This document shows positions 34,304 to 36,282 of a DNA stretch of 38,040 bases, in pieces. Below the pieces are notes generated by a model. That model had not been told where the DNA came from, searched no databases, and saw only the letters and a list, made by a program, of their open reading frames with translations. The DNA is from an uncultured Verrucomicrobiota bacterium. GTDB lineage: Bacteria > Verrucomicrobiota > Verrucomicrobiia > Limisphaerales > UBA9464. Both the position numbers and the translations under genes were made by a program. Numbering within the stretch: the first letter of the stretch is position 1; every line of letters begins with the position of its first letter. The stretch covers positions 1-38,040 of the forward strand of contig CAIVQB010000105.1 of the NCBI GenBank assembly GCA_903907925.1, read 5' to 3'.

Positions 34304-35701
34304 TCAACCGGGAAACCCGAGCAGTTTGCGCTCGCGGATCATGTTGGCGACCTGCGCCGGCACGCCGTCTTCCCAACCGGGAGCGCCAGTTTGGATCCGA
34401 TGAAGCAGGTCGCGGCTGAAGATGGAGAGGTTGGCCTCGTTGATGTCCTTCATGCCCTGGATGAAGTTGTTTTCCTGCAGGTAGCCGTAGAGATGCTGGA
34501 GGTGTGACGCGACACGCAGGTTGCCGGCGGTGATGATCGCCCCGGTCTTCGCATCCTGGTAGGGATAGACGTAGAGTTTCAGGTCGTTGCGGAAGAGGCG
34601 TCCGAATGATTCGAGAATGCCGCCGTCGAGGCCGGCGTAGTATTTCTCGTCGAACAACTCCTTGAGCGTGGGCACGCCCATGACGATGCCGACGGGCATC
34701 CGGGTGTAGCGGAACAGGTAGCTCGCGAGGCGGAAGAATTCGCCGTAGTTGGTGATCAGCACCGGGCGGCCAAGTGTGCCGAGCAGATCGGCGCGATCGA
34801 GGAAGTCGCGGTGATTGATCTTACCCTCCACGTTCAGGTTCTTGAGCGTCATCTCCATGATCACCAGAACGTCCTGACCGGCGACCGAAGGTTCCTGGAC
34901 GAACTGGGCCTGGGCGTAGCGGATCATGTCCACCGTGACCTTGGTGGGAGGGCGGAAGCTGCCGCGTTCGATGAGAACGGGTTTCTTGTAGAGCTGCTCG
35001 GCCGGTTGGACGATTTCGCCGCCGGGCGTGAACATCGCGGCGTTGGTCAGGCCGCGCTCGACCAACTGGAGTGAGACCAGGCGGTTGTCGAGTTGCTTGA
35101 AATCAGGTCCCTCGAACTGGATGACGTCGACCTCGATCCGTTCGATGGAAAGTCCGTCCACCAAGGCCTGGATGACGGCGTCGACATCGTTCGGCATGTA
35201 GAGCGCGGCGTGGATCAGGTTGACGCCGAGAACGCCGAGGGCCTCGGCCTGCTGCATGTTTTCCCGGTCCCACATGCGGACGTGCATGAGGATGTCATTG
35301 GGCGGGCCGCCGGGTTCGGTCTGAAACCGGATGCCCATCCAGCCGTGGGTCTCTTCACGACGACTGTAGCTCTTGGCCGCGACGGTGTCGGCGAAGACAA
35401 AGAACTTGGTGGTCGAGCCGCGTTTGGTGGAGAGGCGTTCAACGAGCAGGGAATACTCGTGCTCCAGCATCGAGACGAGCCGTTGTTTGCTGACGTAACG
35501 CTCCGAATGGCCGTAGATGGCATCGCTGACGATCATGTCGTAGGCCGACATGCTTTTGGCGATGGTGCCGCTGGCGCCTCCGACGCGGAAAAACCAGCGC
35601 GCCACCTCCTGACCGGCACCGATCTCGGCAAAGACGCCGTACTTGCCGGCGTCGAGATTGATCTGGAGTGCCTTCTGGTGGGTGTCCAATCGGTCGCTCA
35701 T
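34304..35701 (-). CDS. Conserved soluble protein of unknown function
   Basis: A 465-residue protein without signal peptide or membrane segment. Highly regular conserved-looking blocks are NLDAGKYGVFAEIGAGQEVA, RWFFRVGGASGTIAKSMSAY and DMIVSDAIYG at the N-terminus; GWMGIRFQTEPGGPPNDIL and GVLGVNLIHAALYM in the middle; FLDRADLLGTLGRPVLITNY and YGYLQENNFIQGMKDINEA near the end. I recall this family in several phyla under misleading names such as TonB-dependent receptor or nicotinate-nucleotide adenylyltransferase; nothing here supports a barrel or a nucleotide-transferase motif. ATG 35701 begins MSDRLDTHQKALQINL; a TTG five codons upstream is less likely. Its 5' side holds two terminators and the structured RNA on the same strand, which could control it. 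Confidence 0.8.
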   Translation of the reverse strand: MSDRLDTHQKALQINLDAGKYGVFAEIGAGQEVARWFFRVGGASGTIAKSMSAYDMIVSDAIYGHSERYVSKQRLVSMLEHEYSLLVERLSTKRGSTTKFFVFADTVAAKSYSRREETHGWMGIRFQTEPGGPPNDILMHVRMWDRENMQQAEALGVLGVNLIHAALYMPNDVDAVIQALVDGLSIERIEVDVIQFEGPDFKQLDNRLVSLQLVERGLTNAAMFTPGGEIVQPAEQLYKKPVLIERGSFRPPTKVTVDMIRYAQAQFVQEPSVAGQDVLVIMEMTLKNLNVEGKINHRDFLDRADLLGTLGRPVLITNYGEFFRLASYLFRYTRMPVGIVMGVPTLKELFDEKYYAGLDGGILESFGRLFRNDLKLYVYPYQDAKTGAIITAGNLRVASHLQHLYGYLQENNFIQGMKDINEANLSIFSRDLLHRIQTGAPGWEDGVPAQVANMIRERKLLGFPG

Positions 35702-35856
35702 TGGGGCTGTAATCAATCACAACCCGTCTCCGCCGGCTAGGCATAAGAACCTGCGGCTGGATCGGGTGTTTTTCCGCTTTCCTTCGATCTATCGGCTTCT
35801 GGCTCAACCGACTTGACCCCATCTGGATTCAGCAGGGGCGGTGATGGGAAGATCGG

Positions 35857-35896
35857 AAAAGAAAAACCCGCGACCCGGTTTAAATCAGGTCGCGGG
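35857..35896 (-). terminator. Second of two tandem intrinsic terminators
   Basis: On the minus strand CCCGCGACC (35896-35888) pairs with GGTCGCGGG (35875-35867), extendable by two pairs, then TTTTTCTTTT (35866-35857). It begins at the base after the T-run of the first terminator. Together they make a double stop before the gene at 35701. Confidence 0.9.
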
Positions 35897-35939
35897 AAAA
35901 AAACCCGGGCGGCAGTCAGAGGATGACCGTCCGCCCGGG
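35897..35939 (-). terminator. First of two tandem intrinsic terminators
   Basis: On the minus strand CCCGGGCGG (35939-35931) pairs with CCGCCCGGG (35912-35904); past one bulged A six more pairs form around the loop TCCTC. Seven T follow (35903-35897). It ends the putative RNA described separately. Confidence 0.9.
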
Positions 35940-36088
35940 GGAATATTCAGAATCAGTTCTGTAGGACTTAGTGGGATATCCGCACTCAACTGAACTAGGT
36001 CGTGTGCGAAACTCGGCGAGCAACCAAAGAACAGGCGGATTCAACCGCAACCGATTGCTCTAAAAACTTCAGTCCTATTCCGTACCGC
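35897..36088 (-). ncRNA. Putative structured small RNA of about 190 nt
   Basis: No protein frame lies here, yet the minus strand has a good promoter, a foldable body and double terminators. Predicted stems, by position: GGAATA (36081-36076) with TATTCC (35945-35940); GGACT (36075-36071) with AGTCC (35968-35964); GAGCAATC (36060-36053) with GGTTGCTC (36025-36018), enclosing GCGG-TTGAAT-CCGC; CGCAC (36008-36004) with GTGCG (35985-35981); and CAGAA-CTGA-TTCTG (35961-35948). A closing stem, an open central region with a hairpin on its 3' side, and the size are compatible with a divergent 6S RNA, but no 6S sequence signature was recognised. Neither tmRNA, SRP RNA nor RNase P motifs are present. 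The 5' end is an estimate from the promoter. Confidence 0.6.
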
Positions 36089-36094
36089 GGGCGC

Positions 36095-36122
36095 AACCTA
36101 GAGTCGTTTCGCCGACTGTCAA
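36095..36122 (-). promoter_or_regulatory. Sigma-70-type promoter of the putative small RNA
   Basis: On the minus strand TTGACA (36122-36117) is followed after 16 bases by TAGGTT (36100-36095). The -35 box is perfect, the -10 box matches at key positions, and the spacer is near standard length. The start would be about 36088. It is the best promoter seen in the window and has no protein gene directly behind it. Confidence 0.65.
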
Positions 36123-36282
36123 GGCCCTTTCCGCATCTTTTATTTCAACCCTCAGGCTTCAAGGAACACGCTGGTAACAAAGGGGTGGACTGGACCCGGG
36201 CGGGTTTGTTCAAAAAGAGTTTACAATTGTGAGGCCCTTTCCCCTTGCCGCACCGGCCGCCATCCCCGTTCATGCGCCCACC

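Follow-up and report, generated by a model that had tools for sequence, protein, structure and literature searches.

The window, the whole stretch of 38,040 nucleotides that was analysed, carries on its minus strand (36122-35862) a compact unit in which a putative TTGACA-16-TAGGTT promoter is followed by a structured RNA of about 190 nt and two intrinsic terminators. It neighbours a divergent uppP gene (PF02673; NCBIfam equivalog), and the next gene on the same strand (34304-35716, minus) encodes a protein of 470 aa that neither Pfam nor NCBIfam matches at E values up to 0.001. Judged by its homologues, the product appears to be a previously uncatalogued, pseudoknotted RNA of about 190 nt in intergenic DNA, kept across Limisphaerales. 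The predicted elements, with the basis for each, are as follows.

36117..36122, minus strand: -35 element TTGACA (sequence; homologue enrichment)
36095..36100, minus strand: -10 element TAGGTT, 16-base spacer (sequence; family pattern)
35897..36088, minus strand: RNA of about 190 nt, its 5' end an estimate from the -10 element (fold and homologue searches)
36071..36077, minus strand: helix P1, 5' strand TAGGACT (covariation)
36055..36060, minus strand: helix P2, 5' strand GAGCAA (covariation)
36024..36033, minus strand: boxA TGTTCTTTGG in the P2 loop, predicted NusB/S10 site (motif conservation)
36018..36023, minus strand: helix P2, 3' strand TTGCTC (covariation)
35978..36012, minus strand: hairpin P3, GTTTCGCAC ... 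GTGCGGAT (covariation)
35991..35996, minus strand: P3 loop AGTTCA, the 5' strand of the pseudoknot (covariation)
35962..35968, minus strand: helix P1, 3' strand AGTCCTA (covariation)
35955..35960, minus strand: AGAACT, the 3' strand of the pseudoknot (97% of cells paired; two-sided changes in 5/5 pairs)
35938..35954, minus strand: conserved segment before T1, of the GATTCTGAATATTCCCC type, unpaired in the consensus (alignments)
35897..35938, minus strand: terminator T1 (order-wide conservation, covariation)
35919..35923, minus strand: T1 pentaloop TCCTC, YCCYC family-wide (YCCYC in 108/113)
35862..35896, minus strand: terminator T2 (terminator scan; conserved in the window's family only)

The initial annotation had recognised no known RNA family here, and searches of Rfam 15 agreed. 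The whole window gave no match at the gathering score; the RNA region, searched at E values up to 10, gave seven matches, all far below the gathering score and 6S RNA not among them; and 20 other family members, searched at E values up to 1, gave only matches far below gathering scores, with sX13 appearing once, sub-threshold, at E 0.82. By titles and abstract openings, neither the RNA family nor boxA at 6S RNA is described among the literature matches listed, a scope outside which most subscription papers fall.

BLASTN against 39 genomes, the window's own included, returned long copies from within the window's genus; other genera of the family share a conserved core, for the most part at 84-93% identity. 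A covariance model built from 17 copies (R1, alignment A1) had matches at E values up to 1 in 45 of 50 genomes of the window's family, in all nine genera, one of the 45 being weak (E 0.85); at E values up to 0.1 it matched 113 of 146 genomes of the order, from 70 of 93 genera, mostly with one copy per genome. A second model, R2, built from 66 diverse members, matched 48 of 52 order genomes, a figure that flatters its sensitivity because many of the matched genomes had supplied R2 sequences. In class-wide and phylum-wide searches with R2, in which strict filters can lose weak matches and genomes without a listed match were counted as outside the order by table sorting, no match was listed for any of 234 genomes from other orders of the class; among 240 genomes sampled across the phylum, the listed matches were the window's own genome and a single weak one (E 0.016). 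A pattern scan of named genomes yielded 18 stretches, 17 of them matched by R2; the other, from Treponema, has no R2 match and was taken as chance. Five of the 17 are labelled as something other than this order (two Proteobacteria, two Akkermansia and one Klebsiella). The 'Proteobacteria' label of L162 looks wrong, because L162 agrees in length and position with G124:C62, from a same-order genome; the remaining four labels, if right, would count against an order limit of the RNA. A few genomes hold two or three copies (G099, G083), and G080 has a close tandem pair (G080:C4:61908-62092 and 62233-62405). We regard the family as a probable stand-alone, mostly single-copy structured RNA of Limisphaerales. 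Element counts refer, where so stated, to a set of 114 copies, 30 from the window's family and 84 from other families, which retains near-identical pairs (L054/L055) and leaves out L027 (at a contig end), L085 and the weakest matches of the R1 order search; the weak members L125, L128 and L132 align poorly.

Comparison of homologues shows the conserved predicted fold to be a three-way junction (P1, P2, P3) with a pseudoknot. On its own, the window's RNA folds at -76.9 kcal/mol (z -4.42), with none of 200 shuffles as good, and an RNAalifold consensus of 17 members contains P1, P2, P3 and the terminator hairpin, with two-sided changes at 16 of 33 pairs. Across 66 aligned members, pseudoknot included, 90.7% of cells are paired (72.3 in shuffles), 441 cells carry two-sided changes (130.7 in shuffles) and the covariation score is 0.515, compared with 0.192 in shuffles and at most 0.075 with slid partners. 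None of 500 shuffles attained any of the five measures; these shuffles take no account of relatedness, a concern that the slide control and the diversity of pair types meet only in part. Two-sided changes occur in pairs of all seven helices, the pseudoknot among them, and P1 is the least regular, with 79.8% of its cells paired. The five compatible stems of the initial annotation were thus largely borne out, in that P1, P2, P3 and two parts of T1 covary among homologues, but the pseudoknot had been missed.

That pseudoknot, with 97% of its cells paired in the 66 members, joins the P3 loop to the stretch that follows P1 and is the cleaner test of covariation, because the alignment was fitted to the stems and not to the pseudoknot. 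Its strands change together across the order, from GUUCA/UGAAC in the window's family to GUACA/UGUAC in many others, with AUACA/UGUAU, GCACA/UGUGC, GUACU/AGUAC and GUAAA/UUUAC as rarer pair types. In a swap test on 112 copies (L101 and L125 dropped from the 114), at least five Watson-Crick pairs formed in 90% of copies with their own partners and in 40% with swapped ones; outside the window's family the values were 88% and 46%. Within that family there was no signal (97% versus 90%), because the strands hardly vary there, and allowing G-U over six pairs weakened the separation (84% versus 63%). A CAGAA/UUCUG hairpin of the single-sequence fold was rejected, as it would occupy the pseudoknot's GAAC and is not conserved in alignments of other families. 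A short coding gene was likewise set aside, in keeping with the original view that the unit has no protein frame: closed ORFs of at least 25 aa occur in 73 of 114 copies, near the roughly 62 of mononucleotide shuffles, and the first part of the window's longest ORF (44 aa from TTG) is not kept in the relatives compared.

The promoter elements are present where they had been proposed, and conservation suggests a promoter-like region. Of 113 homologues, 101 (89%) have TTGAC at -90..+8 relative to the RNA model, compared with 10% of dinucleotide shuffles, and in 95 of 114 copies it stands at least 20 bases upstream of the RNA. The full -35/-10 score is a weaker signal than TTGAC: at least 8 of 12 matches are reached by 37% of homologues and 18% of shuffles, and for complete matches the enrichment is no more than roughly two- to threefold. 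TAGGTT agrees with TATAAT at three of six positions, and a consensus promoter scan listed no promoter at the locus. Among copies of the window's family with TTGAC at -70..-20, the hexamer at 16-base spacing starts with TA in 20 of 23; in other families the majority profile is TTGAC followed by TGnTTTATT, with T rather than A at position 2 of the -10 element. In 15 of 78 other-family members (for example L079, L083 and L109) a TAATACTT box precedes TTGAC by 18-20 bases, and this box or the TGnTTTATT profile may point to an activator site or to an uncommon preference of the sigma factor. Seven members of one sub-group of the window's family lack TTGAC. At L043, L044, L046 and L048-L050 this sub-group has none in the upstream 90 bases, and the promoter there must therefore differ; the RNA and a 5' boxA are retained.

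Two terminators do stand back to back at the end of the unit, as first described, but neither is strictly perfect, T1 having a bulged A and a G-U pair and T2 a G-U pair. The terminator scan lists T2 and not T1, which is plain from sequence and fold. Within the window's family 21 of 30 copies keep T2, compared with 7 of 84 elsewhere and 54 of 570 shuffles. With a promoter-like region of its own, predicted strong termination and covarying stems, the claim of a separate structured RNA is upheld.

The loops of terminators usually vary freely. The T1 stem covaries while its pentaloop stays YCCYC in 108 of the 113 copies in which scripted loop detection succeeded (114 examined), as TCCTC (48), TCCCC (26), CCCTC (18) or CCCCC (16), closed by A-U or U-A (58 and 8 of 66). 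The family therefore has the conserved, unpaired C-rich seed looked for in an anti-Shine-Dalgarno sRNA. C-rich regulatory RNAs can pair with purine-rich ribosome-binding sites, and we infer, as the natural reading, that YCCYC would pair with GRGGR, the core of such sites; the loop could instead be a protein site. A C-rich apical loop is common to this RNA and to the staphylococcal UCCC RNAs, the alpha-proteobacterial anti-Shine-Dalgarno RNAs and Xanthomonas sX13. Unlike in those RNAs, the loop here belongs to the terminator hairpin itself and comes with boxA and a pseudoknotted body.

The other conserved motif is a boxA, a predicted NusB/S10 site. The pattern G[TCA]TCTTT, widened to this form after 6S leaders had been viewed, occurs in 96 of the 114 copies of the RNA region (shuffle expectation 9.4) and is absent in 18; on the antisense strand of the same set it was found once, and in same-length downstream stretches not at all. 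Earlier patterns matched 74 of 114 copies ([TC]TCTTT[GA]) and 68 of 114 (G[TC]TCTTTG), earlier patterns matched 10 of 20 6S loci, and the wider early pattern appeared in 3 of 84 and 4 of 30 downstream flanks and 9 of 83 upstream flanks. The motif lies inside the RNA in 70 of 84 other-family copies and in all six of the window's genus, and 18 of the 30 window-family copies have it in a 5' leader, before P1; such a shift between body and leader would be expected for a protein-landing site. Predicted unpairedness of boxA is 0.52, against 0.42 for the rest of the RNA (70 copies), a small difference. A second boxA-like element, TGTTCCTTGAAG, lies at 36157-36168 of the window (minus strand), upstream of the -35 element, and some genus relatives have TGTTCTTTGAAG or TGTTCTTTGCAG.

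Because the window's own assembly is without 16S, rRNA leaders of five other genomes of the order were used. All five loci have TGCTCTTTGAAA or GTTCTTTGAAA 126-141 nt before 16S, and a second such element follows about 400 nt past the 16S end in the four loci with a complete 16S. The motif in the RNA has the sequence of these same-order leader elements, which we take to be the boxA of E. coli (TGCTCTTTAACA). One study (PMC5725501) presents boxA as historically treated as an rRNA signal and Nus factors as acting beyond rRNA in diverse species, with suhB and other boxA targets. Relative to such boxA/NusB-S10 units (rRNA operons, suhB and others), the motif is common to the RNA and the order's rRNA leaders, whereas the present unit is a short structured RNA, neither operon nor mRNA leader.

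Other noncoding RNAs of the order provided controls. G[TCA]TCTTT lies within 110 nt upstream of 6S RNA at 18 of 20 order loci, compared with 1 of 30 for RNase P, 2 of 29 for tmRNA and 0 of 28 for SRP RNA; the background was 125 of 2560 random stretches, drawn from all loci, boxA-bearing ones included. These samples represent 20 of 50 6S loci found, 30 of 33 RNase P places, 29 of 30 tmRNA loci (one truncated locus dropped) and 28 of 30 SRP loci (two with less than 60 nt upstream dropped). A second 6S sample had boxA at 5 of 5 loci of the order, a set that includes the window's own 6S and counts one genome twice; in the other orders of this class 13 of 25 had it, at distances of up to 90 nt. Where positions are given, boxA lies 9-41 nt upstream of the 6S body at the order's loci (the L178-L197, L001 and L258-L286 set). 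In the literature on boxA and 6S RNA, PMC2694808 is, by its title, concerned with Shigella invE and Hfq.

Comparison across genomes thus establishes, at the level of predicted elements, the family, its separateness as a unit, the fold, the conserved terminator, boxA and the fixed loop. As to function, we believe about as much as we doubt that this is a trans-acting RNA made with a boxA/Nus complex, its C-rich loop pairing with GRGGR targets and its pseudoknotted body serving as a platform. RNA polymerase starting here would be joined through boxA by NusB/S10 and other Nus factors, as presumably at rRNA and 6S, where boxA is seen. The complex would protect the untranslated RNA from Rho and may aid folding of the pseudoknotted transcript. 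Once finished, the RNA would act in trans, with the C-rich loop most likely pairing with GRGGR, for example in ribosome-binding sites of mRNAs, and the body would be a stabilising or protein-binding platform. Complementarity of the conserved segments to 16S amounts to runs of 6-9 nt, counted without a control.

Two other roles draw on the same elements. The finished RNA might be a Nus-factor decoy, whose exposed boxA holds NusB/S10 and so tunes antitermination of rRNA, and of 6S, to growth; boxA is common to rRNA and 6S units and sits, in the 70 other-family copies and six of the window's genus, in the RNA body and not in a removable leader. We think this unlikely: a boxA is found ahead of 6S as well, which needs no decoy; 18 of the 30 window-family copies carry theirs at the 5' end, ahead of P1, in the manner of a 6S leader; and the decoy role leaves the fixed YCCYC loop unexplained. 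Doubtful to a similar degree is a protein platform, in which the pseudoknot and the YCCYC hairpin bind a dedicated protein, such as a regulator of translation or RNA polymerase, and boxA only helps synthesis. It is favoured by the strong constraint on structure, which takes in a pseudoknot kept throughout the order and a fixed pentaloop closed by A-U in some members and by U-A in others, although no gene is linked to the RNA in the neighbourhoods examined, which is weak evidence. It is rather improbable that the RNA is a growth regulator imitating precursor-16S signals, with boxA and a 3'-hairpin loop resembling the anti-Shine-Dalgarno, in a circuit with boxA-tagged 6S; if true, such a circuit would tie RNA-polymerase and ribosome output to Nus-factor supply.

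The two identities raised by the initial annotation did not hold up. Resemblance to 6S RNA extends to a closing stem in outline, a similar size (about 180-190 nt), a boxA near the 5' part, and wide distribution in the order, mostly in one copy (6S is present in 50 of 58 order genomes). A second or divergent 6S acting on RNA polymerase is nevertheless very improbable: RF00013 has no match to the RNA at E values up to 10 and stays below the gathering cut-off in it and in 20 other members, a separate 6S scoring above the cut-off is present elsewhere in the window's genome, and the covarying helices form a three-way junction with a pseudoknot, not the long hairpin with a central bulge or bubble of 6S. 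BoxA, moreover, lies mostly inside the new RNA and, at 6S, upstream of the body. More improbable still, to the point where we give it almost no credence, is that the RNA regulates the downstream gene in cis, as a leader or riboswitch whose expression platform would be T1/T2. The next gene does lie on the same strand, and at 9 of 55 loci, counting the window's own, a member of its family follows the RNA. Among these 55 loci, however, the predicted neighbouring ORFs form 113 clusters and occur in both orientations; the most frequent cluster downstream adjoins nine loci and the most frequent upstream, uppP, eight, all of the window's family. Because neighbours and orientations vary and no single same-strand gene family is constant downstream, we conclude that the RNA is not a leader; the terminator is also among its best conserved parts.

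The favoured reading, a trans-acting RNA made with Nus factors, would concern an RNA about as common as 6S across a large order known chiefly through metagenomes, yet unmatched in Rfam 15. In these bacteria boxA marks 6S RNA and the new RNA, and rarely RNase P, tmRNA or SRP RNA, which raises the question of what role Nus factors may play at short regulatory RNAs.
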